Origin: Antitrichia curtipendula
Lineage: Eukaryota; Streptophyta; Bryopsida; Hypnales; Leucodontaceae
Direction of reading: 5' to 3'
Length of the DNA: 64,000 bases
Assembly (NCBI GenBank): GCA_951230915.1
Contig: OX579637.1
Location: forward strand, 25,110,001 to 25,174,000
Shown here: positions 1-48,105 of the stretch, one piece after another
Layout: every line of letters starts with the position of its first letter
Position numbering within the stretch: position 1 is the stretch's first letter
Position numbers and translations under genes: made by a program
The notes under the pieces: model-generated
Told to the model about the DNA's origin: nothing
What the model saw: the letters and a program-made list of their open reading frames with translations, nothing else
Database searches by the model: none

Positions 1-3
1 CGG

Positions 4-20
4 TCTAACCCTAATCCGGT
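4..20 (+). repeat. 17-bp direct repeat, left copy (candidate target site duplication)
   Basis: TCTAACCCTAATCCGGT occurs here and again, identical and in the same orientation, at 14067-14083. The left copy directly abuts the left terminal inverted repeat. The right copy is separated from the right inverted repeat by six bases (CAATCT). This is the position expected of a target site duplication, but 17 bp is long for DNA transposons, so microhomology at the site is possible. Confidence 0.75.
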
Positions 21-42
21 AACATCATATTCGTTATTTTGG
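21..42 (+). repeat. Left terminal inverted repeat
   Basis: The sequence starts AACATCATATTCGTTATTTT. Its reverse complement is found at 14039-14060 with one mismatch (A versus C at the fourth base). It overlaps a hairpin: 33-44 (GTTATTTTGGGA) pairs with 56-67 (TCCCAAAATAAT) around an 11-base loop, with 11 of 12 pairs matching. Confidence 0.8.
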
Positions 43-564
43 GATTATGGGGCACTCCCAAAATAATATTAGGCTTTTGAAGGCACAATGAATGAATGAA
101 AATGGCCTACACTTTTGCTCCATAATCACTCATTTTATTAGTTCAACTAGTAATTTCCATTAAAATGGGAGTCTTGCAAGCAATACATGTCCTTCAATAA
201 ACATTGCATTGTTTCATGTCATAAACTACATTCAATTCACAACCATGTAAACATAATAATGTAAATACAAAATATATTAATACAGTATATATATTGTGTT
301 TGCGATATAAAGATCGCAAATACATTACCAAAACATATATTCACTACTACAAATCCATAACTCTAGTTGCACGCATGGAAATCAACACAGAAACACCTAT
401 GAAACTCCTAACTCACACCTGGGATAAAATATAATAGTATTATCTATATCCCACAAACATGTGAAAGCATAATTACTGTAAACATCTAGAAATCAAATAA
501 CATTCAATAACATATTACTAACATGTACTCAGAATTTCAGAAAATCAACAATCCACCGCCGCGT
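43..564. other. Left subterminal noncoding region
   Basis: AT-rich sequence between the left TIR and the end of the transposase. It contains the second arm of the terminal hairpin (56-67) and the 11-bp word at 163-173 that recurs inverted near the right end. No ORF was recognised. Confidence 0.6.
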
Positions 565-3408
565 TTAAGACGACGGAATTGAAGCCAAACTTTGCTTGAT
601 GACTTCAATTTGAGCAGCAGGAATCTTGATCATGCACTCTGTGGTATCTTTTTGAATTCTAGACTTCCACGCGGTCATCAATGCGTCTGTACGCTGCCAA
701 CGTGGTGGTTCGGTTTCATCAACCTTCCAACGCAGACCTCTTTCATTGTCCCATCCAGTGTAGAAGTTCTGAACATCCTCATCTCTTGATGTTGGACGGA
801 AATACTGAATGCGCACGCAATTTGGTTCCCAAGGGTTACAATGTAGATCAGACAATGCCCTTGCAATCCAAACTGGATGACTGTCACCATCTGCTGGCCT
901 TACCGCAAGGAAGTAGCCATCAAAAACATCTTGAATCGCCCTGAAAGACGGTTGTGGGTGCCCCCGTGAAGGTCCAACGTAGGCCTCATCTTCTCCAAAT
1001 TCTTCACGGTCTTCGCCGTCTTCGTCTAACCCATCTTCTTGAGTCGCTTGAACTCGAGTAGCCGGCCAGAAACCATCCTTCAAAATAGTAGATGCAGGTA
1101 GTGGGTCTTGCAGCGCAACCTTCACATCACGCCAATAGTGCACCACATGCTCATAGCGCCTCCTGCATTCCCCAGTGACGTCTGCATTGCACAAGTCCTC
1201 CCAGTACTTCACAAATCCATGTACACCCTTCACAATGTCATCTAAGCCCTTCATTGCCTTCTGAGGAACTGCCAATGGTACCCCTTCCGGCCACAAACTT
1301 TTTCCTTCAGCATCTTCTTTCCACAACTTAATGCCTGTGCCGTTTTCCCCTAACCAGTCAACATCAGTACACAATAGTTTGTACTTCATGACAGGACATC
1401 CCGTGGAATCTAGGTAGAACTTCACTTGTTGTGGTCGAGTGTGTCCAACGAAGATGTCACCACCGTCCACAAATGAACCTGCAATGAAATCCTTGAAATC
1501 AGGCACCTCTTCCACAAGGTGAGGGATAGTGGGAATGGATTCCACATCCATGAACGACTTCATAAGTGCAGGAACTGTAGGGAAGTTCTCCTTCTTCAGT
1601 TGCATACTCCATCTTCCGAACAGTGCATCAATGTCGTCGTGCGTGTGACCCACAATCATGAAGTTCTCGTATACTTCACGGAAGATCTTGTTTGCAACAA
1701 GTAGAGACTAGAAACAAAAAACATATCTATTCTTGTTGTCTCCAGTGGCATTGTCCATCTGCACAATGAGAATAGGTGGCAACGGTGATGCCGGAACCAA
1801 GTTAATTGGTGGTGGGGCAAGCGAGGCTTCGCTCATCTCTGCACCCTTCATAACTGCTTTGAACAAATTTGTTGACGGCGATCTCGCAAACAATTGCCGA
1901 GAAGAAGACTTCGGTGTCAACTCAAGATCTCGCAACAACTTTGCCATAGAGCCAATGGTATAGTTTGAATTGTGAGGAAACAAATCCAAACCATAATGCG
2001 CATATCGCACATCAGCATGCCCATGCGCAATCATACCAGTGACAGACACGGGCAACTTCATGAGACCATTAGTGTCTTTACTCTTGTGGGAAAAGACTAG
2101 GCAAGCGGTTTTGGAATGATCCATCTTGTCGTGCATGATAGTGAGGCACTCGTGCGGAAAAGTATGCGATCGATAACGGTTCGCATAGTACAACTCCCTG
2201 TGAGCGCGCGCAATAGCAAGATGCTTGTCCAACTTCAGCGACCACATCAAAGCGGTCTTAGAACCAGCAAGAGCACCCTTCCTCAACTCTTTTAGTTTGT
2301 CACAAGTAGCGCACCAAGCGAAATTGTCTCCTGGCTTCTTCACCTCATACTCCAAGAATTTGGAGGATCTGATCTTGCTTAAATTTGAAATTGAAACTTC
2401 AGGCAATCCAAAAGCTGCATTGGTATCATTGATTTCTTTCATCTTCCCCTTCCACTGAAACGTAGGCGGTAGACATATGGACACGACCTTCTCCCCCGAC
2501 TTCATAGTTCGAGTACGATGTGGCATGTGGTCGGCCTCCTTCTCAAGGAGACACTTCAAGGTAGCAGTAGCTTGTTCAGTGTGTTTCCTTGGCTTCACCA
2601 ATCCCGTATTGCCATGGTCCTTTGCTTCCCGACGACCCTTCATGTCCTTCAGATACCGAAAGAATGTAGTATCGGAGACACCAGCAATATGTCTCCAAGC
2701 CTGCATGCAAACCGGGACCTCTTCAACCGTCACCATGTGCTTTCCACGAGAGTCGCAATGAATATGTCTATGGACGTCCATCTTCATGAAGGCTCTCTGC
2801 TTAAACGTCGAATTCTGGTACATGCGCTCACGGAAGGCCCGAATCTTCTCCCTCGGAAACGGCTGAAAACAATTTCGGACACAGCAAACCTTGCTAGAAA
2901 CTGCGTTGATGGACACTTGTGTAAGAAGACTTTTCGACTTCAGGGAAGTCTCGCGATGAGGGTTTCTGAGGATACTTGAATAGGGTCTGCTAGAAGTCGA
3001 CGACGGTGGGTTGAGAAGATTCACTTGGCGACAATTGAATCTATCCCTGGCTTCATGATCATAAAGGCTTGCCCCACGGCAGTGGACAAGCTCAATAGGC
3101 CAAGCAATCAAAGAGTAAATTTGCTCATGGGATATGTCATCTTCTGAATGTGTCCTCGAAATGAATACTGCAACATGAGTGTTGCCCAGAGGACCATGAG
3201 CACCAAGAACCAAGTCCGAGTTTACACTATGGCAAGTACCTTCCCCAATAAGTACTCCACCCTCATTGTACAAGGTTACGCACTTTGTATTCCAATGCTT
3301 ACGCGGAATACCTTTGCAATCAGGAATGTCTTGAATCGATTCCTCAGGAATCTGGAGTTCCTCGTCCGAGTCCTCCATTACATCGTCAGGGTCGACTTCT
3401 GAGGCCAT
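565..3408 (-). pseudogene. DUF7869-like transposase, single in-frame TAG
   Basis: Transposase candidate for the 14-kb element. One frame runs from the ATG at 3408 to a stop at 565 (947 codons if the internal TAG is read as sense). The protein has an acidic N-terminus, a Cys-rich patch (CCVRNCF, about residue 185), VCMQAWRHIAGVS (about 240) and a CxxC pair (FAWCATCDKL, about 375). Further on are HDKMDHSK (about 435), QMDNATGDNKNR (about 550) and VGHTHDDIDALF (about 586). The paired QMDN...NKN and GHTHxDID motifs are the hallmark I know from DUF7869/transposase-like proteins of plants, algae and invertebrates; they probably form an acidic RNase-H-like active site. The TAG at 1708-1710 falls between the two motifs, and the 16 codons to VGHTH stay open and in frame. 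That points to one recent nonsense change. An upstream TTG at 3420 is not the likely start. Confidence 0.8.
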
Positions 3409-3420
3409 GGCACCTGACAA

Positions 3421-3879
3421 GAAAGTTGTTCCAATAAACGTGTAAAAAACATTGAATACCTATGAGTCACAATTATGCCCGGGTCGAGCAGAATGTATTA
3501 CGAACACCACTGAATCAGAATCCCAATTCTACGTTGTTAAGAGTCCAGTAATGACAGCAACCATGTAGTGTAAATCAGCTCGAACCGCGCTGAATTGCAT
3601 TCAAAGTCCAGAGTCAGAGATGTTCACATATCATAAATCAACACAATATCAGTAGATATGTCATTCTTCCCGGCGCGATCTGGCACCTAATACCAAGTTA
3701 GTAGTGTGATACGTCAAAGACTAATGATCTGCAGTATCCAAAAAACTATTTGTAAACAACATGTCAATAGAATAATCATGGCACCACGTCATTAAAATTA
3801 AGAAAGGGACATGCTATATTCTGAAACAATGGAACAATGCACTACACACACGTAATGAACAGCAGTTTAGAGATATGCG
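3421..3879. promoter_or_regulatory. 5' region of the transposase with two palindromes
   Basis: Noncoding sequence upstream of the minus-strand transposase. It contains a partial palindrome near 3479-3500 (gggtcgagcag) and a fuller one near 3576-3603 (cagctcgaaccgcgctgaa). These belong to the palindrome family that forms the array to the right and recurs in the introns of the plus-strand gene. A sequence like a 3' splice site (ttcttgtcag) lies just upstream of the ATG at 3408, so a 5' noncoding exon is possible. Confidence 0.45.
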
Positions 3880-4820
3880 CGCTGAAGTATAATATTAGGA
3901 TATATACTGTACATCTATGCAAGGTCGGCCCACTCTTGCAATTCAGCGCTAAGCGCGCTGAAATGCAACACTATGATGCACACTAATTATCTATGCGTAG
4001 TCGGTTTCAAATGCCATTCAGCACTAAGTGTGTTCACATGCAATACTATGTATAATCTACGTCTATTCATGACCGTTCGCAAATGCAATTCAGCGCTAAG
4101 CGCGCTAAAATGCAACACTATGATGCACACTAATTATCTATGCGTAGTCGGTTTCAAATGCCATTCAGCACTAAGTGTATTCACATACAATACTATGTAT
4201 AATCTACGTCTTTTCATTACCGTTCACAAATGCAATTCAGCGCTAAGCGCGCTGAATTGCAGTACTATGGTATACGTCATTGTAATTAGGGAAGGGACAT
4301 GCTATATTATGTAACACTGGATCAATGCACTGTAGACATGCAATGAACTACAGTTAGAGCTAAGCGCGCTGATGCACAATACTAAGATTCGTGCAGACCA
4401 TCTACGCAAGGTCTGCAGTTCAGCACTAAACGCGCTGAAACCCATTATCATGATGTACATGAATCAGATATTTATGCTCGATTCCCAAATGCAATTCAGC
4501 GCTAAGCGCGCTGAAATGCAATACTATGCTGTATAATAATTATCTTACTCGTACTCGGTGTCAAATGCCATTCAGCACTATGTGCGTTAAAATGCAATAA
4601 TGTGTATATTCAACGTCAATTCATGACCGGTCGCAATTGCAATTCAACGCTGAGCACGCTGAAATGCAGTAGTATGGTATATGTTAACCATGTTAGCGTC
4701 GTCGGTCCTCTATTGCAAATCAGCGCTATGTGCGCTGAAATGCAATTCAGAGGTATTGAAATCATGGACGATTCTCTGCTGCAATTCAGCACGGTCAGCG
4801 CTGAATTACAATTCCGTAAA
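3880..4820. repeat. Array of ~13 palindromes at ~74-bp spacing, in a 147-bp tandem repeat
   Basis: The core is TTCAGCGCTAAGCGCGCTGA followed by AATGCAA. I count sites near 3882, 3941, 4016, 4087, 4162, 4235, 4350, 4412, 4495, 4571, 4642, 4717 and 4783. Most gaps are 71-76 bp. A higher-order tandem repeat has a 147-bp period: ctatgatgca at 3971 recurs at 4118, and the flanking sequence matches over the whole unit. Alternate sites are of two types, GCGCTAAGCGCGC and GCACTAAGTGTGT. The short ORFs here are periodic artefacts. The layout resembles a protein-binding array. Confidence 0.85.
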
Positions 4821-6187
4821 ATAAGGGAACTTCAATGTCATTTTTATTGGTTACTGTCTCCGGGATTCACAGCGCCCATTTTGGTGATTGTCTTACATCA
4901 ATTGAACGCGGTTCTGAAGCGGTCTACGAATCGGTCTGCAATGCGGGCGGTGCAATACATGAAGACATGAAATGCGGTTTAGTGGAATACAGAGTTCATC
5001 AAACAACGTCACTGCCAAACAATGAATGAATAATGTCTATCCTGGTGAGTGACAAGCTTCCAATAATGAGTCGATGATAGCTTACAAGTAATAATCTGCA
5101 GTGAAGTGCCTCCTCTAACAACGCAAAAGACAATAACAACCCGACTTCAAGTCGATCACAAAACGATACTACTCTGAACTCTTCATAGAAATCTAACAGT
5201 ACAAGTCAACCGCGCAAATGAAGAGAGCAGCGTACGAGGAAGTCGATGCAGGTGAAGAGAGGGGGAAATGGCAAGTCCGCGAGTAGGGTGATGGCGCTCG
5301 CTTGATTTCCTGGCGGGAACAAACGAGCGAGAATGTTTTCAAAACTTCCCTCCTAATTCCTGATGTCCAGAGAATCAATGTGGCCTTTGCAGCTTTACAC
5401 CAAGAAAGCGTCCTCTACAGCGTGATTTATTCAGTGGTCCCACTGAAGTTATGGGCAAAATTCTGACAAGGGTTTCCTTTATAAATGCTCGTTGACTTTA
5501 TTAGCCTAAGGTGTCTCTCTCCTATTGGAAAGCTGTCATCCTTACCTCGAGATAGTTGCAAATCATTCCTTTATCCCCATCCAATTCGCATTGCCTGCTA
5601 CGCCATTAATGGTGATAGCTTCATATTAGAATCTGAAATACTATTATTGTACTTCAAAGAAACTGCCGGCACCTGCTGTTGTCGCTTATACAATACTTAA
5701 TTATCACAAAGCTGCAATTTTGAGTTGATTCTCAAAGAAAAATAGCTGTCCTACAATGCCTATTTCGGTATTTATATGCGGGAATTTCCTTTATCTTTAA
5801 TTGTGAATAAGTTCTGTGTTGTAAAAATTAGTATATATTAATGAACAAATTAAATGCCCGCTGAATTCCACTTTCATGGGAGAGAATTAAGGATTCAGAT
5901 TCTTGAAATTCTAGGTTTGGGGGTCTAGCGTTTAGGGTTTAGGGTTTAGGGTTTAGAACTCAGACCTTCGACTTCTAAGCCATCAAAATTGTTGAAGGCG
6001 GTGACAAAAGAAATGTTGCCGTACATTCATAACAATCTTTTAGTGCACACAAATTTGAATGAAACATAATGTATGTAGAGGAATCAATAATGTGCGTCTA
6101 AATTGTGCCTAGAACTTTATTCACTACAAACAGCAGAAGTCATGAAATGCGTTTGTGAAGAAATTACAAAAGAACACGTAGAAGTTG
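4821..6187. other. Intergenic region inside the 14-kb element
   Basis: I see no gene I trust. The two ORFs of 61-71 codons have no recognisable motif. The only marked features are the interstitial telomere-like repeat at 5931-5955 and the start of a satellite array at its right edge. Confidence 0.6.
5931..5955 (+). repeat. Interstitial telomere-like repeat (TTTAGGG)3
   Basis: Three perfect TTTAGGG units followed by a partial unit. This is the Arabidopsis-type plant telomere motif, and such short internal tracts are common in plant promoters and at repair junctions. A similar tract in the opposite orientation (CCCTAAA) lies near 41000-41020. Confidence 0.8.
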
Positions 6188-7370
6188 TTAATATTTCCTA
6201 GATTCAACATCTATTAAAATTTTCAATTGTTCTTCATTGTTAATTAATCTTTACATCATGAATAGTAAAAAAATAAGAATCAACGAGGCTTTGTATTATA
6301 ATACAACATAAAAAGCTAATGAATTTGTACGTAAAGTGCTTAATCTAGAAATGTAGAAGTTGTGAACATGATGAAGTTATTAAAATTGTGTGCACTTTCA
6401 ATGAATTTTAATGTGAATAAAAAAAAGGGAAAGAATTTGGCCCTAAACTTAATACACCATTATTAATACCAGAAGTCATGGATTGATACGTACAAGGCTC
6501 AAACCAAAAAATATTGAAGTTTCAGATATCATAAAGATTAAGAATCTCATAAAATATTTAATTTGAGCACATTTGTAATGAACAAGGATATGATGTATGA
6601 TTTGGAATAAATTCTGGCCTCATTGTGTTTTAATACACCTCTTGTTCCATGATACCAAATGCCATGGCATTGGTATATGAAGCATACAATTAACAAATGA
6701 AGGACTTCCAAATATCTAAAAGATTATAAATATTTACAAACATTTAATTCATGAGCAATTTCCATGAATTCCGATGGGAATTAAAAAAATGGGAATGAAG
6801 TCAACATTGTTTCCCAGTACACAACCAATACCAGAAGTCATGGAATTTGTACGTAGTAGGTTTAGTGTAAAAATATGTAGAAGTTCTAAACATCAATAAC
6901 ATTAAGAACTTTGAAGAAGTTTAACTCAAAGCCTTTTTATCAATCCCGACATGAATTAAAGAAATGGAAATAAATGTAGCCCAACATTTTAATACACATT
7001 CAAAATCAAAATTCATGGAATTGTTAAGTTATAAACTTCATCAAGAAAAGGTAAAAGTTGCAAATATCATGAAGATGAATAATCTTTGATGAAATTTAAT
7101 TCATGCGCATTTTTTATGATTCCCGACGTGCATATAAAAAATGCGAATGAACTTGGTCCTGTATTTTAGTAAATGACCAATATCCAAAGTCATGAAATTT
7201 ACACGTGAAAGGCGTAGTGAAAAAAAATGTAGAAGTTGCAAATATCATGGAGATGAATAATCTTTGATGAAATTTATTTCATGCGCATTTTTTATGATTT
7301 CCGACGTGCATATAAAAAATGCAAATGAACTTGGCCCTGTATTTTAATCACTACAAGAGAAAGGGGTGTT
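6188..7370. repeat. Degenerate ~178-bp satellite array, about seven copies
   Basis: A recurrent block (gtagaagttgcaaatatcatgga, tttgatgaaatttaattcatgcgcattt, cccgacgtgcatataaaaaatg) is anchored near 6188, 6367, 6525, 6710, 6884, 7062 and 7240. The gaps are 179, 158, 185, 174, 178 and 178 bp. The last two copies are the most similar, so the array has probably grown from its right edge. It lies between the palindrome array and the composite gene. Confidence 0.75.
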
Positions 7371-7534
7371 TTAAGTATAGTCCTAGAAATAACATTGTAA
7401 GTAATGACCTTTTTAGGAGATTTTCAGTAAGAATTTACAAGATATTTGTGTCTTTCTAGTAAAATTTTGTAAAGAAAGTTCAGACGAAGTCCTCGGAACA
7501 ATCTGAAGTCCATGATGGTAGCTTCGTTGAGGAG

Positions 7535-8191
7535 ATGGCAAATGTTCCTCACTCCCGGGCAACGGAGAGAAAGCCGAACTACAAGGCCATCAGCGAGGCA
7601 TACCAGAAGTACTGGAGAACATGCAAAGACACGTATGTCTTCGCGGTTGACGAGAAGAAGGTAGTGGACATCTCCCAGCTAATTGACGCACCGGTAACAT
7701 TCAACATTCGGTCAAAGTAGTAGAGAATAGTGGAAGACAACGTGACCTATCTGCTGAACATCCCCGACAAGAGTGCAAAGCAGACACTTTGCGTTATGCC
7801 CGTCGGCCTCACGAAAAAACCAGAGACGTGGGAAGAAATTGAAGCCGGACAGTTTTACGTCATTAACGGACAACATAGCGTTGAGGCAAGCAAGTTTATG
7901 TTCAACGACGAAAATGGTGTTGACCACGAGGAACGAGAACATTTCAGGAAATGGAACTGCTTCATCGTGTGGTCCCTGGACGGAGAGAAACTGCGAACTG
8001 TCTCCGCGTACTATAATCGGGTGATACACTTCATAGCCGTTCAGCCGTTGTGGGCGACTAATATTCTAAGAGCGCGGGCAGTCTGGGAGGCCATGGGCAA
8101 ACTAAAGAATCCAGCTCAGGTTCAGTTGGTCGGTACACTAGCCAATACCAAGCGAACCGTCGAAAATCGGAAGAACAAAGACGCTTTCCAG
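7535..8191 (+). CDS. Exon 1: ParB/sulfiredoxin-like (GQH) domain, with TAG TAG
   Basis: It encodes about 219 residues. The key motif is FYVINGQHSVEASKFM (residues ~109-124), preceded by strands such as TLCVMPVGL. This matches the ParB N-terminal/sulfiredoxin/DGQHR pattern (hydrophobic strand, [ND]G-x-H-R, then a helix starting xAA), which in bacteria and phages binds DNA or nucleotides. The usual Arg after GQH is Ser here, so enzymatic activity is doubtful. Two adjacent TAG codons at 7718-7723 (after FNIRSK) interrupt the frame. Sequence on both sides is clearly one domain, so they are decay or a missed splice. The donor is CAG|GTTTGT at 8191/8192. Confidence 0.5.
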
Positions 8192-11100
8192 GTTTGTCAT
8201 TCAGCGCGACTCGAGCTGATCTGCAATGGCTTTGTGCCTATCTGATTTGTAATTGTTGAGTCATTCTCACCGCAGATTAGCGCGGGTCGAGCTGAAGTGC
8301 TTGTATTGACAGTAATTTCTTGGAATCGGGTGCAGGCGTTCGAGAAGGCGATTTTGTTGCGGTTCTCCATGATCGAAGTAAACAAGAGATTGAAGATATC
8401 AAAGACGAAGGGAAAAGAGGAGAAGCTAAAAGTGATAAATGAACTAAAACTCATCACCGCTCCTGAGCATGTATACAAACTCTGGAGCAAGGTTATCTCC
8501 GCTGCAGCACATAGTCAACTGCTCAACCCCGACACGAATAAGTTGTTCAATGTGAAGGAAGACTGGAATCCGGATACGTTGGCACTTAATCGGGAGTTCT
8601 TTAAACATTTGGGCAATCTGAGCTATGACGAGCTGGAGAAATTGGCAGAGCACATTCTTAACCAGACGGGTACCAAGCGAACCCTCTCCTACCCCAAAGT
8701 GACGATTAAGTCCATCTCGTCCGTGCTTGAGAACTGCTACAACGTGAAGGAATGGGTAGAGAGACGGAAGAGGAAGCACCTTGTGAAGAAAGAGCTTCAC
8801 CAAATCGACCCCGAACTTGGTCTTCTGAATGCTAATAACGAGATCATCACGGAGAACTGGAAAGCCTTCAAGAAAGATCGATTCTTCTCGAGGGCAACCA
8901 TGGATGTCCTTCTCGACAGACCCGGAGAGGCGTACTTTGGGAAGGCGAAGCTTGTGAGTGCTAAGAACAAGTCATGCTCCGAGCTCTCAGACGAAGCTTT
9001 TCAGTTCTTCAAGGTGTTCCTCGAGCAGAAGAAGAAGTTCGTGAAGCCCGCTGCATTCGGCCACTATCGATCGTACGAGTTCGCTAAGAACTATTATCAC
9101 CAGTGGCCAGTGCAATCATGGACGGATGAGACCGTGAAGCGGCTGTCTCTTGGTGTCATGGACATCCGAAATTTTCCCGGGATTGAGAAGAAGGATGCGT
9201 CCACTGTGGACAGCCCTTTTTTTGTCGAAGCAATGGCAGCCATGCGGAAGAAGAAGAAACCGACACTTGAGGAGGTCCCCGCTTGGCTATTCATTTGCTC
9301 TGACGAGAAGGAGCAAGCGCAGGTTCTTAGATTTGTGGAGACGAATGAGGATCTGAACACCTATGCCCTGGATTTCGCGACATACACGCCAGGGAAGAAC
9401 GACCGCCTTGGTGACATTGCCGCTGCCAGGACACCAAAAAAAGTCTTGCTCACCTTTCTCCAGAACCCCAAAAACGTGAATCCCGTGGAAATTCCGGACG
9501 AATTTGAATGTCCGGAGACAGCCAGATATACAAAGGCGCGCGCATACAGTGAGCTCGAATATCGGATACACAACACGGAGCTGCGCATGGAGTTTTATCT
9601 GTGGATTGTCCGGAAGTTCTGCAATCCGGGGATGTGCTTCTATTCAGCATTCGCGGGAGGGAAGTTGACGTGTGCTGCCATGGTAAGACTCGCCAATGCG
9701 AATCAACGCGAGTCGCGCTGATCTGCTCCTCTGTACACATGTTCTATAATAGTTGTTAATTTCCCGAGATGTTGTTCCTCGTTTCAGCGCACGGCGCGTT
9801 GAAGTGCAATGAGTGTTCGCCGATGTAACTCCATTGAAATTGTCTCCTGCAGATGAGCTCTGTCGATGTCTACGCTTGTGGATTGTTAGAGCAGTCGTTC
9901 TGGTGGGAGGACATTTGTATGAAGGCCATGACATTAGACAAGGCCGATTTTCTGGAAGGCGGGTACCCTGTGAACATCGGAGCAGGACCAAGTTCGGCGC
10001 CCTCGCCCTCGAAGAAGAAGCTGCGGGCGAGTCAAGATTCTCCCCGTAAGAAGAAGGCGGACCCTGTCGTCGATCTTACGGAGGATGAGAGCGAAGAAGA
10101 GGTCGATCACGAGGACTACAACGACACCTTTGGGATCGACGATATCCAAACACCAACCAGTCGTCTGTCTTCGGAGGTGCCAGTTTCATCGGGTTCTTCT
10201 ATGCTGCCTCCGATGCCCCATACGCCAGTTACGCCGAGTCCATCTACTCGCCTCGCGAAAAAGAGGAAGCGGGAGTCGATTGCCAACGCAATGAGGAGCA
10301 TGGCCGAATTCCAAGCCCAGAGTGTGCAATCTCTGGCAAATATGCAGAAGCAAGCTGAGCTAACGCAGAGGCAAAATGAGCTTGCCTTGGCTCAAATTAG
10401 AGCCGACGCTAGCAAGGAGAGACAGGCGAACATGGAAATGCATAATACTAGCCAGGAGTGGATGCGGGAAGAATCTAGAAATAATAGGGAGCTGGCCATG
10501 CAGAATAGAGAGATGCTTCAAATATTTCTGGCGAAGGTTGGAATCGAACCACTCGCCTCGCTGCCACCCGCATCCCGGTCTCCCTCATTGCTGTTGGAGG
10601 GGCAACCGTCTAGCTCAAACATCAGCAATGCGTCGAGCCCCTCCAAAGCGGCGCAGGCCTCTCCACCTCTGTCGTCGAGCCCGCCCATTATGATTCCCCC
10701 ACCTCCAATTGATGAGAATATCGATCCTCTCGTTCCATGGTCAGGGAGTCCCGGTGTACCTCAGGAGCACCCATGTGTCGACCATGGAGCGACGGAGATC
10801 ACCGCGGAGGGAGTTGGAATTGGGCACAACCTAGTCGTGGATGCTTCCGAGGTTGAAGTTAGAGGTGCCGCACTACCTACCGGAGATCCACCAGCAGGTT
10901 GTGCTCAATAATCTCCTTGTGCCATCTTGTGTAGTTTCAGCTCGACTCGAGCTGATCTGTATGATAGAGTTTGACTTGTAGTATTCATTTCCTGGAGGCA
11001 GTATTGTTTTGTTCCGGAGCTCCATATTTAGTGGAGCCAACCGTAGTTTTGGAAGTGTTGCACTCAATTTTGTAATTTGTAAACCGAATGTGTAATATAT

Positions 11101-13161
11101 AAATTTCTCACTGAGAACTTTTTCTACATCTTGTAGCGCAGGCCCCACAAATCCTCCAAGTTTTCCTGATGTTTGTCATTCACCCTCCGCACAATCTCAA
11201 CCGCCTACGTCTCCAGGGCCCGTGTACGAAAATGACTTGTTGTCAAGTCCCGTCCAGTCTGTGGCATTAGGTGAGGATAGATCTGTCCGTGATCATGTTC
11301 AATCTGGTCGTGAAGGTCGTGATCGGCCATCAGGTTCCCCGTCGAGGAAGGTAAATTCCATCTACTCCAATCACTTTATCTATGTAGGCTTTTCATTTGT
11401 TTTGCGGTGGTCGTCTTTCGTATGATTTTCTGTGAGGCCTAGAATGTGCCAGTTCCACGGTCGTAACTGGCAATGCATTCTTCCTTTTGCTAGCAGGAAT
11501 TCAATCCTTTGTTAGCTCGTAAGGAATCATCGGAGGGCATCCATCAGCCATTGAGGTCCGCGGCGGCGGAGAAGTGGATAAATGTCGTCTTGGACCTCAA
11601 TGGCATTCTTTGTGTCAGCGAGGATTGGAAGTCCAAGGGGTCCTCCAAACAATTCAACCATCAGTCACAGCCACACTCCGCCACGGTTGGCGCGATTGTA
11701 GGGCCAAAAGCCGTCTACGTCCGGCCCAATTGCTCCGCATTTCTGAAGGAACTAGAGAAGATAGCCTTTGTCTCTGTTTGGAGCTCCATGAGAAAGCCCT
11801 CCACTGAAGGCATTTGCCTGTACCTTTTCCGGGACGGAGGGATGCCCTTCCTCATCCTTGGGCAAGACTCCTGCAAGACGGTTAAGTGCAGGGATAGATT
11901 TGGAAAATTGATCTCGTATAAAGAACCCGGAACCGATAAGGACTTGTTCTTAAAGAACATGGACGTGTTGTTCAGTGACTCGCGAGGGAATTTTTCATCA
12001 GACAACACCGTTATAGTAGACGATAGTCCTCGTAAGCACATCCTGAACAACCCAGAGAATGTTGTACTCTTCGACTCCTGGAGTAACCGAGGAAATGGTG
12101 ACAAGGACAATTTTCTCCTTGCGGTCCTACTTCTTTGGTTCCAAGGGTTGCACGCCAGCCGCGGCGTGGGACTTAAGTCATTCCGGAGTGATAAGAAATG
12201 GAGAATTGGGAGGCGGATGCTATGCGAGGAAAGAGGTCGTCGAGAGTTTGACAAACTCATGGAGGTGGTGTCAGGTTCTAGTAGAGTTATGTAGCTCAAA
12301 GGCTGGAGGTATGTCTTTCAGCTCGAATCGAGCAGAAGTGTATGTTTTATCCGTCTGTTTAAAATTGTGTACGGCTTCTGCATTTCAGCACGAGTCGCGC
12401 TGATTTGTGTAGCAAGTTTTTTCACTGTCCGTCGACCGGTTGTGAATGTGTGTGATTGCCTCTCGGTGTATGCGCACTCCTCAGTTTTGTGTGTTCCGAT
12501 TTTGATGTATGCTTTTTTGTGTCAGATGGGGAGTGCGTTAGAACCCTGTGCGCCAAACCAGGTTCTCCCATGCCAGGCTTCTGCGGATTCTATCCTAGAC
12601 TACGGGCAGTATGTAGTACTCAGCACTGGGAACTTTCTCTGCTCGGCACCCACACTGAATTCCAGTATGGATTTCTGTGTTAAGCCCATCGATGATGGTG
12701 TGGTGGACAGTCCACCAGATCGAAAGCCTCATCTGCCGGTTTCGTGCTCGCCATCTCCTTTGCGCTCAAGGGATAATCGAAATTCTTCAATGTCTCCAAC
12801 AGCTTTGGACAAGGGCACGCAAAGGAGGCTATACAGGGACGCCAACTATCCCATGTCGGCTGCAGAATTGGAGCTCAATGTCCTAGAGAAGCCACGTGAT
12901 ATAGTTGTTCTTGCTCCTGTTGTTCCGCCGTCGCTTCCTCGTCGACGTGCACAATCATATGGACTGGGATTAAAGAGGAAACATGATGAGCCATCGCGGA
13001 GTCAATGTTCTACTCCAAGTCGGGACTCCTGGGAGCTCAGATCGTTACAGGCGCAATGGGTGGAGCACATGCGTCATGCCGGGAAAATTGCTGAAGGTTA
13101 TAGTCGTGGGCCAGAGATTTTGAAGGCGTTGGAGAAGCTGAGGAGTACGCCTCGTATTTGA
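7535..13161 (+). CDS. Composite cargo gene: ParB-like / MTase-like / coiled coil / FCP1-like phosphatase
   Basis: Six exons can be joined in frame: 7535-8191, 8336-9682, 9853-10897, 11142-11350, 11497-about 12264 and 12526-13161. Together they give about 1,553 residues. Phases agree at the first four junctions (0, 0, 1, 0) with GT-AG borders. The fifth junction is less certain because only weak donors (GAG|GTGGTG) keep phase 0. The last exon could instead be a separate gene starting at its ATG. Only one interruption is seen, a TAG TAG doublet at 7718-7723. The gene is the main cargo of the 14-kb element and diverges from the transposase. Joining is inferred from splice signals and open frames; no transcript was available. 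The upstream 5' boundary is also uncertain because the frame is open for at least 50 bp before the ATG. Confidence 0.6.
8192..8335 (+). other. Intron 1 with two palindromes
   Basis: GT-AG intron of 144 bp, phase 0. It contains two members of the element's palindrome family: cagcgcgactcgagctgat at about 8201-8219 and agcgcgggtcgagctgaag at about 8279-8297. The first begins eight bases after the donor. Confidence 0.75.
8336..9682 (+). CDS. Exon 2: helical region leading to a methyltransferase-like FAGGK motif
   Basis: 449 codons, all open. The first half is lysine-rich and helical and unrecognised. Near the end come ELEYRIHNTELRMEFYLWI and CNPGMCFYSAFAGGKLTCAA. With the start of exon 3 (VDVYACGLLEQSFWWEDI) this resembles the C-terminal motif I of beta-class N6/N4 DNA methyltransferases: NPG-x(4)-FxGG, a helix, then an acidic residue. 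ParB-methyltransferase fusions are common in phages and plasmids, which makes the order plausible. However, no proper DPPY motif is visible; LDFATYTPG is the nearest. Any methyltransferase fold is therefore degenerate or only apparent. The donor is ATG|GTAAGA at 9682/9683. Confidence 0.5.
9683..9852 (+). other. Intron 2 with two palindromes
   Basis: GT-AG intron of 170 bp, phase 0, with a good donor (GTAAGA) and acceptor (tctcctgcag). It contains caacgcgagtcgcgctgat at about 9704-9722 and ttcagcgcacggcgcgttga at about 9784-9803. The second is followed by agtgcaat, as in the intergenic array. Confidence 0.8.
9853..10897 (+). CDS. Exon 3: nuclear, SIM-like, coiled-coil region
   Basis: 348 codons ending in phase 1. 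It starts with the completion of the methyltransferase-like motif (E-SFWWEDI). Basic patches (KKKLRASQDSPRKKK, about residues 55-70) follow. Next is VVDLTEDESEEE, a hydrophobic core plus an acidic stretch, which is the classic form of a SUMO-interaction motif. A proline/serine linker leads to KKRKRE (about 137, nuclear-localisation-like). A long Q/N/R-rich segment with heptad-like spacing (about 145-225) probably forms a coiled coil. The exon ends in a low-complexity Ser/Pro region. I infer a nuclear scaffold that links the upstream DNA-binding-like part to the downstream phosphatase domain. Confidence 0.55.
10898..11141 (+). other. Intron 3 with one near-perfect palindrome
   Basis: GT-AG intron of 244 bp, phase 1. 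About 37 bases after the donor it carries CAGCTCGACTCGAGCTG (about 10937-10953), nearly a perfect palindrome, followed by ATCTG as in introns 1 and 2. Confidence 0.7.
11142..11350 (+). CDS. Exon 4: short Ser/Pro/acidic linker
   Basis: It has 209 bases and joins exon 3 (phase 1) to exon 5 (phase 0) in frame. The product is low complexity: PTNPPSFPDVCHSPSAQ, then SPGPVYENDLLSSPV and RDHVQSGREGRDRPSGSP. It is probably an unstructured linker before the phosphatase domain. Acceptor ttgtagcgcag and donor AAG|GTAAAT support the borders. Confidence 0.6.
11351..11496 (+). other. Intron 4, different palindrome
   Basis: GT-AG intron of 146 bp, phase 0. It lacks the CAGC..GCTG palindrome but contains a separate inverted repeat, TGCCAGTT...AACTGGCA, at about 11448-11473. 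Confidence 0.7.
11497..12264 (+). CDS. Exon 5: FCP1/NIF-type HAD phosphatase-like domain
   Basis: 256 codons. The domain begins at WINVVLDLNGILC (about residue 27), the HAD motif I position. It continues with VYVRPNCSAFLKELEK, FVSVWSSMRK (motif II), DKDLFLKNMDVLF and NTVIVDDSPRKH (motif IV, the DD pair), ending near VVLFDSWS. This order is that of FCP1/SCP-like phosphatases acting on RNA polymerase II CTD and related substrates. The second Asp of DxD is replaced by Asn (DLN). I recall DLNG-type members as a common plant subgroup whose activity is uncertain. Capture of a host gene by the transposon is the simplest origin. The weak exon end (GAG|GTGGTG) may be wrong; without it the frame stops at 12294. 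Confidence 0.75.
12265..12525 (+). other. Intron 5 (uncertain donor) with two palindromes
   Basis: The acceptor (gcttttttgtgtcag) is good and ends at 12525. The donor is unclear. A near-consensus donor AG|GTATGT at about 12309 lies 14 bases past an in-frame TAG (12292-12294) and would not keep the phase with the last exon. Palindromes cagctcgaatcgagcag (about 12316-12332) and cagcacgagtcgcgctgat (about 12387-12405) belong to the element's family. Confidence 0.5.
12526..13161 (+). CDS. Exon 6: C-terminal part of composite gene, or a small separate gene
   Basis: 212 codons from an ATG to TGA. The product has no domain I recognise. It has a Cys/Ser/Pro-rich N-terminal part, then PVVPPSLPRRRAQSYGLGLK, a basic stretch (KRKHDEPSRSQ) and a helical end (RSLQAQWVEHMRHAGKIAEG, ending LEKLRSTPRI). 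Because a good acceptor lies immediately before the ATG and the phase can match, I treat it as the last exon. It could equally be an independent gene using that ATG. Confidence 0.5.
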   Translation: MGSALEPCAPNQVLPCQASADSILDYGQYVVLSTGNFLCSAPTLNSSMDFCVKPIDDGVVDSPPDRKPHLPVSCSPSPLRSRDNRNSSMSPTALDKGTQRRLYRDANYPMSAAELELNVLEKPRDIVVLAPVVPPSLPRRRAQSYGLGLKRKHDEPSRSQCSTPSRDSWELRSLQAQWVEHMRHAGKIAEGYSRGPEILKALEKLRSTPRI

Positions 13162-14038
13162 AAGCTTAGTTTAGTAAATGACTGAATAGTGTAGATTTAG
13201 TAGTAGTTAATGTTGTAGATATAGAAACATGTGAATAGATTTTTTATAGAACTAAATGTTTCCAAATATCTAGCAAAGGGGTAGTATATACATTGTGGTG
13301 AGGTCCATTACTGGATATTACAGAATCCTTTCCTGGGTATCCTCAAGATGTGAGCTATGCACACTGTTAGAATTCTACAAACCGGGTAGTCAAAATATGA
13401 TATCTTCATTGCTTGTAGTAGTCATGCAACTAGAAGTTTAAACAGATGATGATATGGTGACTGAAGAATGAAGTGGATGCTCAACTTTGACCTAGATCTG
13501 GGAACAAATGATGAAAAAATAAAACTGTCCAAACGTCGCTCTAAGGGCATTCATAAATGACGCTCCGAATTGCAACGTCTGGAGAGTGATTTCTGAGAGT
13601 CCTAAGGTGGCGTTCGTATGATTTGTTTCTTCACTATTTGTTCCCTGATCCAAGTTAAAGTTCAGCATCCACTTTGTTCTAAATTCACCATGCATTTGTC
13701 TTTCTAAGTAATCTATTTGTAGTGTCTTGCACATGCAATGATGATGTCATATTTAGATACCAGGAGTGTAACGGTAGGCTATGTTTCTTTTGGATTTTGT
13801 TGGGCAATGCAATCATCCATCATTTACGTGTACATGTCATGACATTTGTGAAGGAGTAGTATTACGTATGGCAAGTTGTAGATGACATTTCCATATTTTC
13901 CGTTCACAAACTCGTTTTACATGTAATTGCGTTCCATTTCATGTGCTGAATTCTTGAAATTCACGATTGTTTCTCAATTATATGACTCCAAATATTCCCA
14001 TGTCATTGGAATACGACTCCCATTTCACTGGAAAACTA
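13162..14038. other. Right subterminal noncoding region
   Basis: AT-rich sequence after the composite gene. The only ORFs are 71-80 codons with no motif. Near the right end is the inverted copy (14015-14025) of the 11-bp subterminal word. Confidence 0.6.
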
Positions 14039-14060
14039 CCAAAATAACGAATATGAGGTT
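14039..14060 (-). repeat. Right terminal inverted repeat
   Basis: Reverse complement of 21-42 with one mismatch. It is followed by CAATCT and then by the right 17-bp direct repeat. Confidence 0.8.
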
Positions 14061-14066
14061 CAATCT

Positions 14067-14083
14067 TCTAACCCTAATCCGGT
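14067..14083 (+). repeat. 17-bp direct repeat, right copy
   Basis: Identical to 4-20. The six bases between it and the right TIR (14061-14066) have no counterpart on the left, so the exact right end of the element is uncertain by six bases. Confidence 0.75.
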
Positions 14084-28800: not shown

Positions 28801-29016
28801 TACTAGAAGAAACCCATGTTTTTTTGACATGCCCAATATTTTTATGATGGATTTTTTTGGCCATCTATTTTGACATCTAGGTGTTTTCATGTCAACAATA
28901 ACATCCAATGAACATCATAAACAACATAAAAACAGCTAGATGTCAAAATAGATGGCCAAAAAAATCCGTCATAAAAATACTGGGCATGTCAAAAAAAACA
29001 TGGATTTCTTCTAGTA
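28801..29016. mobile_element. 216-bp foldback MITE
   Basis: Left arm 28802-28888 and right arm 28931-29016 are inverted repeats of about 86 bp with only a few differences. They start ACTAGAAGAAACCCATGTTT and include CCATCTATTTTGACATCTAG. The loop is about 42 bp. Flanking TAAA/AAAT words could be a short target duplication. The arms would form a long hairpin RNA, so it could feed small RNA production. Confidence 0.85.
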
Positions 29017-42089: not shown

Positions 42090-44047
42090 CTAAGATTGGT
42101 AATCACTGTCTCCTTTCACTTCAGCCCCGCTACTATGACCTGCTCTATTCCATCCGGAATCATCGTCGTTGGATGAATTTTGCATACTATCTGATGAAGA
42201 TTGTACAATCTTCCTCCTTCTTCTTGTACTTGTTTTCATGCGCCTGATTTCATTGGTCTACCTAACTTATGGTCCCTTTTGGCTTTTAGTATAGACTTTC
42301 CAATACCTCCCTTAAGGTCGTGGATTGGTTTCACCTTTCGCTTAATAAGAGGCAGATTTGCATCAAGGAGGGTTCTATCTACATTTTGTTTTTTCAATGG
42401 AGAGATTGCAAAAGGCTCCATTACTCTTTTCCTCTTAGCTTTTTTGTACTCCTCCACCGCGGGTGGACGTGCTTCCGAATCTCCTGAATGTTTGTCTTCT
42501 CTGCGGACAAAGCTTCCACTATAGGGTTTGATGATTTGATCGGATAATGCTTTGCATGGCCAGAAAATTGAAAAAACATAGACTCCAATGTTTGCGCATC
42601 ATTGTTGTCTGATGAAATGGATGGATTTGGATTGGCACCAATGCGCAATTCTTTCAAATTGCTCAAATTTTGTTCTTTAAACCGTGAGTCTCCAAGACCA
42701 TTCAAAGTCGTGCTACCGCTTGTATATAGTGTATGTCGAGAACCACTACGTGATGGTAATTGAGGATCTCGCACGAGTTGCTTCATGTCTTTGGTATTGA
42801 GGTTTGGCATTGGGCACATGGACTCCAATACACATGGATTTTGACTTCCTACTATTCGAGGTGCATGGACATTTTGAATGCCTAAAAGTCCAATACTTTT
42901 ACAGACTTGCCAATGCCCCTGGTAATTCAATACTTTGGTTGACCACATTTGTGTGGGACTTTACCCCACACTCTCTCATGTCTTCATGTTGATCATTTTC
43001 TTCCGCTCCTACCATTGTCATGGATGGACACTCGGGAATTCAAATCACTTCATCCATTTGGGGAGTTTCATCACCTATGAACATTTCCTCATCTTCCTCC
43101 ACTACCTTCGCATGAATATTTTTCCTATTTGCTAGAATGTTTTCACTACGCAACAACCCGGTTCCATCTAAGTATTTAGCTATGGAAGGTCCACCTTCAT
43201 CATATTCACAGTTGTCAATCCATTATTCGTTTGCCCAATCTTTTAGCAACAAATTTAAGGCATGCACTACGCAACCTTGGAAAAAAATGTAGGCTTAGGT
43301 AGTAGATACCAAATTCAATGCTACTGGATTTACAGCCGCATTATCTGTACTCACCTGCACTATATTTGCAGGGCCCACTTTTTCTATGAAACTCTCTAAT
43401 ATAGAGGCCAAATATGGAGCATCTTTATTTTTCCCAGTTGTATCCACCAATTCTAAAAATTGCTCACCCGCGGATGACACAAGCATGGCATTTATCAATG
43501 GCCAATTCGAAACCGAGGTCCACCCATCAATAGACAATGTGGCTCCAAACTTTCTAATACTGATTTTTGTCCGCTTACAGAGATTGACTTCCAAGTCTAT
43601 CTTTGCTTGGTCAAGCAATTTATGACGTAAATCATGGTATGATGGTTGGCTATAAGGTTGGTGAAACTCCGCTTTTTTTGCACTGCTTTTTTGAAGGTTG
43701 GATTTCGGGTTACAGCAAATGGTATGTTTGCCGCATAAAAAAAATTGGCCCACAATGCATTCAAATTGCGTTTAAATAGCCATAAGCCATAAGTGCGTCA
43801 TTGCCATCCACATTGTGAGGAGTATCTCTTTGCGGAATCACTCCATTGCAATGAACAAATAGACCTTGAACTTCAGATGTCATTTGGATACAAAAGCTAA
43901 TTCTTTTGTTACGACTCCTCGATGTGCCTGCATATCCCAAATGGCTAAACATACGGACCGCCTTCTTATCAAAACCAAGTTGCAAGCCTTGCATTGTACT
44001 TTTCCATTTGATAGGATTTTGTACCAAGAAGACCAATCCTTGCTCAT
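42090..44047 (-). pseudogene. hAT transposase (BED + DUF659), internally deleted
   Basis: Starts at the ATG at 44047 with WYKILSNGKVQCKACN and, after a frameshift, FDKKAVRMFSHLGYA: the C-x2-C...H pattern of a BED zinc finger. Next come VQGLFVHCNGVIPQ and the DUF659 core: ATLSIDGWTSVSNWPLINAM, VDTTGKNKDAP, FIEKVGPANIVQVSTDNAAV (43295-43753). GCVVHALNLLLKDWA follows near 43260, then a TAA at 43223-43225. The usual hAT C-terminal half with the dimerisation motif is missing. The sequence jumps to a tail with acidic pieces (VVEEDEEMFIGDETP near 43070) and ends MKTSTRRRRKIVQSS...GDSDYQS at 42090. The core is therefore deleted or derived from a related non-autonomous element. Arrays at 41520 and 44290 flank it. 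Confidence 0.7.
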
Positions 44048-46518: not shown

Positions 46519-48105
46519 CTATATACAATAACAACAATCAAGCATAGTCCAACAGTGAGGTGCCTTCCTCAAAGTGTCTAGAACATCAGGCACAGACGCC
46601 CTTTTGCCTACATCTACTTTCTAGAGGCTCAACAGCTTAGTCTTCAAATACTGATACTACTTTGTTTTTTTGGTCGTAAAATACTTAAGAAAAACATTCT
46701 TCTTTCCAAATTTGATATGCTATCTACCCCGTTGCATATGCATCAGCAGCCATGGAATACACCTTCTTTTTTTGCATGACTTCAAGCAAGGTCTCTGACC
46801 CCTTCTCTCTGTACACGTAGAACAATTCAGGGTTGCATGTTTTCGTTGATTTTTCTTCCGTTCGAGCTCCTCTATGGTTCGATAACCATACCTTGATGGT
46901 TCCTTCTCTACAACTCGACCAGATAGCCCCTAGTCGCAAATCCCTATGTACACTGTGTTCTCTTTCCATTCATCAAAATGGAGCAAAACGTTGGATGGAG
47001 TAATGTCATTGTGTAAATATTGTGCTTCATGGCATTTTTCCACTGTGACAAGCAATGATAAAGCCAAATTCACAAAAATTTTGCGATAAGTTGCAACCCA
47101 ACCGAGTTCTTCTTGCGTCAAACTTGTATCATATTGTCTTGTGATGTTATCCACCTCCAATGATTCGCTCACTTTTGAGTTGTACTTGACTAAAAAAGAA
47201 ATTAAAGAGCCTCCATTCCACCATAGCGTATAGCCTTCCATTGTTTTGGGATGGATGTACGCAAGTCTTATGATATCCAGATGTATCACTGGACACCCTC
47301 CCGCCTCATTCACAATATCTTGGCACTTTTCTTTCTCATTTGAGGTCTTCAAAGTTTTTCCGGCGCAGCAAATCCAACTGGGAATGCTTTGCAGTCTTGT
47401 CAGCACCACCTTCCTCACGGTCCCATATGATCCAGTCGCGGTCTGATTTGGCATGGGATTCACTTTCATGCAACTTTCCAACCACTTGAATGTTTCTCTA
47501 ACGCAATGAGCTCGTATTTGGTCTTCAAGCGTTGCTTTCCATGGTGCTTGTTTCTTTCTACAGGAAGAAGAATATTGTTGGGAGAACTTTTGAATTTGGA
47601 TCAATCTCAAAGCAAACTCCTTGTCATGCGTGTCCCAGTCACTACCATCCTCCTTCTTCTTTGTGTGATAACACCAATTTGCCACAATATTGGTGGTCAA
47701 CTACGACACTTGTTTATCCAACCACTCAAAGTGCAACCAGTAATCCAGATAATTGTTGAATCGCTCTGATGTTCTAAATTTGGTCTCCAACTCTCGCCGC
47801 ACTTCACTAGTCAAGTTGTGGTATCTTTCTTTGTTGTAGTTCACGTATTCTCTGGACATCATTCCAGAGCTTCGTCGTTTGTAAAAGATTATCGCTATTG
47901 CTCTAGTCTTGAACACATATTTATGGGGGGGCATGTCTGGATTCGGTAAATTTTTGCACTTCGACCTGCCAGATGATGAGGGATTGGATGACCTTGAAGC
48001 CACTAATCCATTCGATGCTAGAGGTACCGCCTCAAAATTTGCATCCAAGTCTTCAAATACCGACCTAATGGAGTGACCTAATGACTAACCTCCTTCTCTT
48101 GCCAT
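46519..48105 (-). pseudogene. Protein kinase gene, cargo of a transposon, multiply broken
   Basis: Eukaryotic protein kinase fold. From the ATG at 48105 (MAREGG) there is a Ser-rich N-terminal region and a helical domain (EVRRELETKFRTSERFNNYL). Kinase motifs: GSYGTVRKV (G-loop), CAGKTLK (Lys), LHNDITPSNVLL (catalytic loop, HND for HRD), CD-stop-GLSGR (DFG position), NPELFYV (APE), AADAYATG-stop-IAYQIW (subdomain IX) and VDVGKRASVPDVLDTL (XI), ending at a TAG (46519-46521). In-frame TAGs lie at 48085, 47701, 46930, 46724 and 46621 (lowest coordinate of each). A frameshift sits in an A-run near 46855, and another is implied before 46623. The TAG at 46930 replaces one residue of the DFG-equivalent motif, most likely Trp. 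It diverges from the RING gene. Confidence 0.7.

Follow-up and report, generated by a model that had tools for sequence, protein, structure and literature searches.

In Arabidopsis, VANC21 binds motifs in the introns and upstream regions of VANDAL21, and the tandem repeats of its motif change between VANDAL families, as described in the passages covered of PMC5735166. VANC is the only worked-out case, within the parts of the literature searched, of a plant transposon that escapes silencing through a protein of its own. For mosses, the passages covered of a Physcomitrium patens expression paper name PpTc1 and PpTc2 as DNA transposons (PMC7466625). Here we describe a transposon in a 64-kb stretch of the moss Antitrichia curtipendula (GenBank assembly GCA_951230915.1, contig OX579637.1, positions 25,110,001 to 25,174,000, forward strand), which we call the window. 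The element is 14 kb long, spanning positions 21 to 14066 of the window, and carries a gene for a DUF7869 protein, a multiexon cargo gene, and a set of palindromic sites. On balance we lean slightly toward reading it as a transposon that encodes its own sequence-specific DNA-binding regulator, which would act against silencing by analogy with VANC.

In the mechanism that we propose, the DUF7869 protein, probably a transposase with an RNase-H fold, would move a family of moss transposons. The cargo product would be a nuclear fusion protein, consisting of an N-terminal domain, a ParB-like domain, a helical region, a methyltransferase (MTase)-like domain, a predicted long helix, and an NIF-like domain. 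It would bind, as a dimer, to palindromic operators in the promoters and introns of the element, coat the element and keep its genes active against host silencing, and leave other DNA alone. If true, this would be a second case of a plant transposon escaping silencing by its own protein, probably in mosses, and one resting on a presumably unrelated, bacterial-looking protein; it would supply natural protein-site pairs of different specificity, making coevolution directly testable, and the DUF7869 family would gain an element whose ends are defined. A limited literature search found nothing in print on this kind of cargo/site system, in line with the initial annotation, made from the sequence alone, which knew of no described plant transposon with such a cargo.

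Results

Palindromic sites in noncoding parts of the element

The sites, which were absent from the initial annotation and were found in the follow-up, have the form TGCAATTCAGCGC-N5-GCGCTGAATTGCA, or its 21-bp core, and measure 21 to 31 bp. At a threshold of at least 17 of 26 positions, 19 matches lie inside the element and a single weak one (at 49319) elsewhere in the 64 kb; with 200 permuted half-sites the count averaged 0.6 positions and never exceeded 4, whereas the real motif has 20. Position 10931 adds a twentieth element site, with a score of 16, and all 20 element sites lie clear of coding sequence. Thirteen belong to an array that precedes the transposase-like gene and is built in part of 147-bp tandem repeats (Table 1); of the others, introns 1 and 2 hold two each and intron 3 holds one, intron 4 is free of them, and two follow the NIF exon. 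Thirteen hand-picked near-neighbor spacings, chosen without the longer gaps, have a mean of 73.8 bp. A looser 21-bp motif (at least 14 of 20) has 25 places in the window, 19 of them in the element, including one in coding sequence (925, 14/20), and 6 outside, where 4.5 were expected and at most 6 occurred in 10 resamples. As in VANC systems, then, an element-specific motif is dense in noncoding parts. A cargo protein of the ParB type is the natural candidate binder of palindromic sites, and the suggestion in the initial annotation that DNA-site binding is tied to the element is strengthened by them, with the cargo as putative binder.

Table 1. Positions of features of the element in the window
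Feature	Position	Strand	Basis or remark
Left 17-bp direct repeat (possible target-site duplication)	4-20	+	Exact pair with right repeat
Left terminal inverted repeat	21-42	+	21/22 against right terminal inverted repeat
Left subterminal word	154-173	+	18/20 inverted match to 14015-14034
DUF7869 protein gene (putative transposase)	565-3408	-	Pfam, translation, homologs
13 palindromic sites in an array, spacing mostly 66-76 bp	3569-4810	.	Upstream of transposase-like gene
Diverged units of 178-bp repeat, ~65-75%	6508-7352	.	Inside the element
Cargo exon 1 remnant, ParB-like domain	7463-8191	+	Translation, relatives' alignment
Cargo intron 1	8192-8335	+	Palindromic sites at 8195, 8271
Cargo exon 2, helical region and MTase-like domain	8336-9682	+	Alignment to relatives, structure prediction
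Cargo intron 2	9683-9852	+	Palindromic sites at 9697, 9778
Cargo exon 3, NLS-like and SUMO-interaction-like stretches	9853-10897	+	Long helix predicted in relative
Cargo intron 3	10898-11141	+	One palindromic site, 10931-10961
Cargo exon 4 (linker)	11142-11350	+	Translation
Cargo exon 5, FCP1/NIF-like domain with DLNG motif	11497-12294	+	Pfam, relatives
Two palindromic sites after NIF exon	12312-12409	.	Starts 12312, 12379
211-codon open reading frame	12526-13161	+	Recognizable in copy 2
Right subterminal word	14015-14034	-	18/20 inverted match to 154-173
Right terminal inverted repeat	14039-14060	-	21/22 against left terminal inverted repeat
Right 17-bp direct repeat	14067-14083	+	Exact pair with left repeat

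The palindromes could instead be RNA hairpins or splicing signals in introns, since up to 13 bases of the two arms are complementary across a 5-nt center, and one or two palindromes stand in four of the five noncoding gaps after exon 1. We consider this highly improbable, however, as arrays also precede the genes, the transposase start by as much as 1.4 kb, sites surround an uninterrupted transposase open reading frame (ORF) on contig L001 (see below) too, several window sites lose arm pairing, and intron 4 lacks a palindrome altogether. A self-repressor is a more credible, though still unlikely, alternative: the ParB-like protein would bind the same operators and keep the transposase gene and its own gene low, like KorB in copy number control on plasmid RK2. 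Sites in most of the introns and after the gene would be needless for promoter repression, and VANC sites, in the passages covered, share the intron placement. Because the sites lie in introns, we favor anti-silencing over repression as the putative outcome, by analogy with VANC.

Related sites and genes in other sequences

A diverged second copy (copy 2) lies left of the window on the same contig, at about 25,099,980 to 25,108,402, with 63 to 71% DNA identity to the window over six aligned pieces; its cargo gene retains the N-terminal domain (P0004 residues 1 to 1127 and 1284 to 1541, in four pieces). With a motif derived from copy 2 itself, 15 sites near a TTTAGG half-site (at least 15/20) were found, against a mean of 0.1 and a maximum of 1 in 30 resamples; these and the other recurrence controls were first-order Markov resamples. 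Placement, read off the coordinates, is seven sites before the gene, two, two, and one in introns 1 to 3, and three after the NIF exon, and a dyad scan free of any half-site gave seven dyads. The place of the sites is kept between the window and copy 2 while their sequence differs.

A search of a genome contig set found one moss-type locus, in a cyanobacterial bin; no relative was found in a viral contig set. The genome record concerned, "uncultured Synechococcales cyanobacterium AVDCRST_MAG81" (G001), holds moss-type contigs with introns (L001, L006, L007, and L008), which are probably misbinned eukaryotic DNA, presumably of moss origin. L001, at 4.3 kb, has an open DUF7869 gene (52 to 53% to P. 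patens) and 10 sites (at least 14/20), mostly with TTTAGC or TTTAGG half-sites and all outside the gene; resamples gave a mean of 0.36 and a maximum of 3, and 3 of the 10 pass a strict dyad scan. Three cargo contigs from the same bin, L006, L007, and L008, contain eight, seven, and five dyads, respectively (resample means of at most 0.02). L006 carries ParB-like, MTase-like, and NIF parts, and the dyads of L008 use another half-site, TTATCC. One of the eight L006 dyads overlaps a called exon span, the call having been based on a protein that itself reads into the intron.

Sites were also sought in the read-through tails of cargo exons from 41 added proteins, 28 of which were kept (at least 8 residues) and 13 shorter ones dropped. 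Eight of the 28 tails reach 18/20 palindrome compatibility, in three reading frames, compared with 0 of 410 exon 30-mers that were not length matched; 16 of 28 gave P < 0.05 by shuffling and 12 did not (an earlier form of the motif gave 15 of 28), with the qualification that tails from kindred sequences are not independent.

Half-sites thus differ between lineages, and site places are alike across diverged copies. Sites that are palindromic, element specific, noncoding, alike in placement, and lineage variable in their half-sites fit a self-encoded DNA-binding regulator, and a change of half-site at kept places is as expected with a coevolving protein and sites. A further proposal, which we put forward only as doubtful, is that a ParB-type clamp loads at the operators, extends over the element, and labels it as self, new specificities arising by joint change of protein and operators. 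Alternatively, the transposase or a host factor may bind the palindromes, the cargo being a passenger, and L001 does have sites flanking its transposase-like gene on either side, whereas its 4.3 kb hold no cargo. This we judge quite unlikely, given that the window sites are internal rather than terminal, that copy 2, L006, L007, and L008 have sites around cargo genes, and that half-sites vary by lineage, unlike the site of a fixed host factor.

The DUF7869 and cargo genes

DUF7869 is split over two adjoining ORFs (Pfam E of 3.5e-19 and 1.6e-13; 69.6 and 51.1 bits against a cutoff of 26), with one in-frame TAG inside the domain (1705 to 1707); the Pfam matches uphold the claim of the initial annotation that the unit contains a transposase, in the sense of a putative one. 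The protein has 110 homologs, with identity up to 75 to 78%, and 28 of 28 aligned homologs match PF25273. Known transposase superfamilies besides DUF7869 gave only two matches (E of 0.055 to 0.068) among 28 members, an absence that is no proof, and a limited literature search found no mention of DUF7869. The nearest named relatives of the window proteins are from P. patens and Ceratodon purpureus, and both element genes belong to moss families. Two C. purpureus DUF7869 proteins (P0051 and P0062) bear KC19_VG locus tags, on a 110-Mb contig; we take VG to denote the V sex chromosome.

The cargo gene runs for 1,351 codons to a stop at 12292 to 12294, where moss relatives end too. The initial annotation had given it about 1,550 residues; its composite, multiexon nature stands, and the downstream 211-codon ORF appears to be a separate, third gene or an alternative 3' exon. 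The ORF containing these 211 codons has no family match better than an E of 0.1, and read-through into it from exon 5 was rejected on phase and on the end point of the relatives. Exon 1 contains two adjacent TAG codons (7718 to 7723); an intron across them was rejected, as relatives align straight through. For the N-terminal domain of the cargo relatives, 3401 to 7460 gave no match better than an E of 0.09.

Pfam places NIF/FCP1 in the cargo gene (E of 5.8e-15), and in models built from P. patens relatives, not from the window's own proteins, predicted ParB-like and DNA-methyltransferase-like folds precede that domain, the former with the N-terminal fold of ParB. The ParB/MTase/FCP1 composite noted at the outset therefore agrees with the predicted folds and, for FCP1, with Pfam; ParB and MTase sequence matches were not found by Pfam, PHROGs, or PDB sequence search, and Foldseek alone gave nothing at an E of 0.001 or less for either predicted model.

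The catalytic motifs look degenerate. ParB-type sequences carry an arginine-bearing nucleotide-binding motif at a place where the cargo reads NGQHS (NGQHN in P0145 and copy 2). Beta-class DNA N6/N4 methyltransferases have the catalytic motif (D/S/N)PP(Y/W/F); at the expected strand end, as placed from the model and that motif, D[LIF]R[ENY] stands in the 14 sequences picked up by a script whose pattern itself required D.R. FCP1/NIF phosphatases have DxDx(T/V), with two catalytic aspartates. Every cargo copy in which the motif was seen, namely the window, five script-matched P. patens proteins, copy 2, and L006, reads DLNG and lacks that motif. The three enzyme folds appear to have lost their catalytic residues. 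Phosphatase chemistry is therefore doubtful, and the RNA polymerase II C-terminal-domain type proposed by the initial annotation is not borne out; because the enzyme folds look dead, the protein more likely serves in structure or recruitment than in catalysis. Stretches that we presumptively call nuclear localization signal (NLS)-like and SUMO-interaction-like occur at matching places in the window and P. patens cargo proteins, and to that extent the SUMO-linked nuclear localization suggested earlier has a counterpart.

Ends and unity of the element

Paired terminal inverted repeats (TIRs), near perfect over 22 bp as originally reported, are as expected of a TIR DNA transposon; allowing three mismatches, the pair has no further match in the window (expected, 0.00). 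The flanking 17-bp repeats, which contain AACCCTAA, are likewise exact as reported, and no third match was found in the window at up to two mismatches, a weak control given that 277 distinct 17-mers recur there, many in tandem arrays. A 17-bp target duplication is no more than plausible, because 6 bp (14061 to 14066) separate the right TIR from the right repeat. The inverted subterminal word was also recovered, as a 20-mer; its right-hand occurrence recurs in copy 2, and L001 has an exact 15-mer match to it (E of 0.18). Alignment of the two 300-bp ends scored 37.0, and the best of 200 shuffles 35.5; beyond the TIR and the subterminal word the ends are therefore unlike each other. The right ends of the window element and copy 2 align with a score of 22.5, whereas none of 200 shuffles scored above 12.0; that of copy 2 (L009, 7357 to 7402) has a subterminal word and terminus like the window's.

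The element was initially called complete. This holds for its ends only: both genes carry stops and the cargo N-terminal domain is missing, so the window element is a degenerate copy, broken in both genes, and open relatives exist. Other copies sharing the TIRs and cargo had been proposed as a check; copy 2 has the cargo and the right end, and its left end and transposase were not found. Several observations weigh against our interpretation. No second locus holding both genes was seen, copy 2 has no transposase within reach, and a stretch of 79 kb to the left of the window, about 65 kb of it a 178-bp satellite, gave no transposase match; the nucleotide-binding arginine of ParB is also lacking in the cargo. 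The first two of these would suit a chance neighborhood of two unrelated parts, a transposase gene and a family of repeated genes. We hold this to be very unlikely: both genes lie between one pair of TIRs, the operator that precedes the transposase-like gene also occupies the cargo introns and has just one weak match in the rest of the window, and the window element and copy 2 have their right end in common. The element as one unit of ends, transposase-like gene, and cargo is supported.

Other features of the region

The 178-bp tandem repeat covers about 65 kb or more, from G000:C5:25031001 to about 25096500 (L012 to L016, L010, and L011), matches at lag 178 by 88 to 96% in full 2-kb bins, and stands just before copy 2. 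One idea is that this satellite, possibly centromeric, grew from the transposon's internal repeat. The element also contains five copies of GGGTTTA, a plant-telomere-like unit (5921 to 5956), and, near its right end, a 70-bp inverted repeat that is 80% complementary (13454 to 13523 and 13622 to 13691). Elsewhere in the window are two ORFs matching DUF659, a domain related to hAT transposases (43295 to 43771, minus strand, E of 2.4e-20; 56187 to 57854, plus strand, E of 5.1e-31), an ORF with a weak protein kinase match below the Pfam cutoff (46930 to 47700, minus strand, E of 1.8e-4), and an inverted repeat at 28819 to 28997 with many exact 16-mer pairs (28849 to 28865 and 28936 to 28952 among others), a foldback or a hairpin resembling a miniature inverted-repeat transposable element.

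Comparison with known systems

The cargo resembles FCP1/NIF-like phosphatases in its Pfam NIF domain and differs from them in having DLNG in place of DxDx wherever the motif was seen. With the bacterial clamps ParB, Noc, and KorB it shares a predicted ParB fold and dispersed palindromic sites, the latter known for KorB. It departs from them in having NGQHS instead of the arginine-bearing motif and in belonging to a eukaryotic transposon, and the likeness to a clamp is one of predicted fold. The TTTAGC half-sites may resemble the KorB operator; a search of the KorB paper for this likeness found nothing.

Fungal transposons encoding TET/JBP dioxygenases are likewise DNA transposons with an epigenetic regulator and a proposed escape from silencing; in the passages covered, those elements encode an enzyme, whereas the folds here appear degenerate, and no operator system is described (PMC12730594). 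The closest parallel is VANC/VANDAL (MuDR) of Arabidopsis: according to the passages covered, that system too is a DNA transposon with a further gene, has short sites in noncoding parts (introns and upstream of the transposase), partly as tandem repeats, and differs in specificity between families (PMC5735166). In the moss element, by contrast, the transposase-like protein is of the DUF7869 family, the sites are 21- to 31-bp palindromes at which binding and demethylation would be expected by analogy, and the putative regulator is a ParB-MTase-NIF fusion, a protein presumably unrelated to VANC that would resemble it in its working only.
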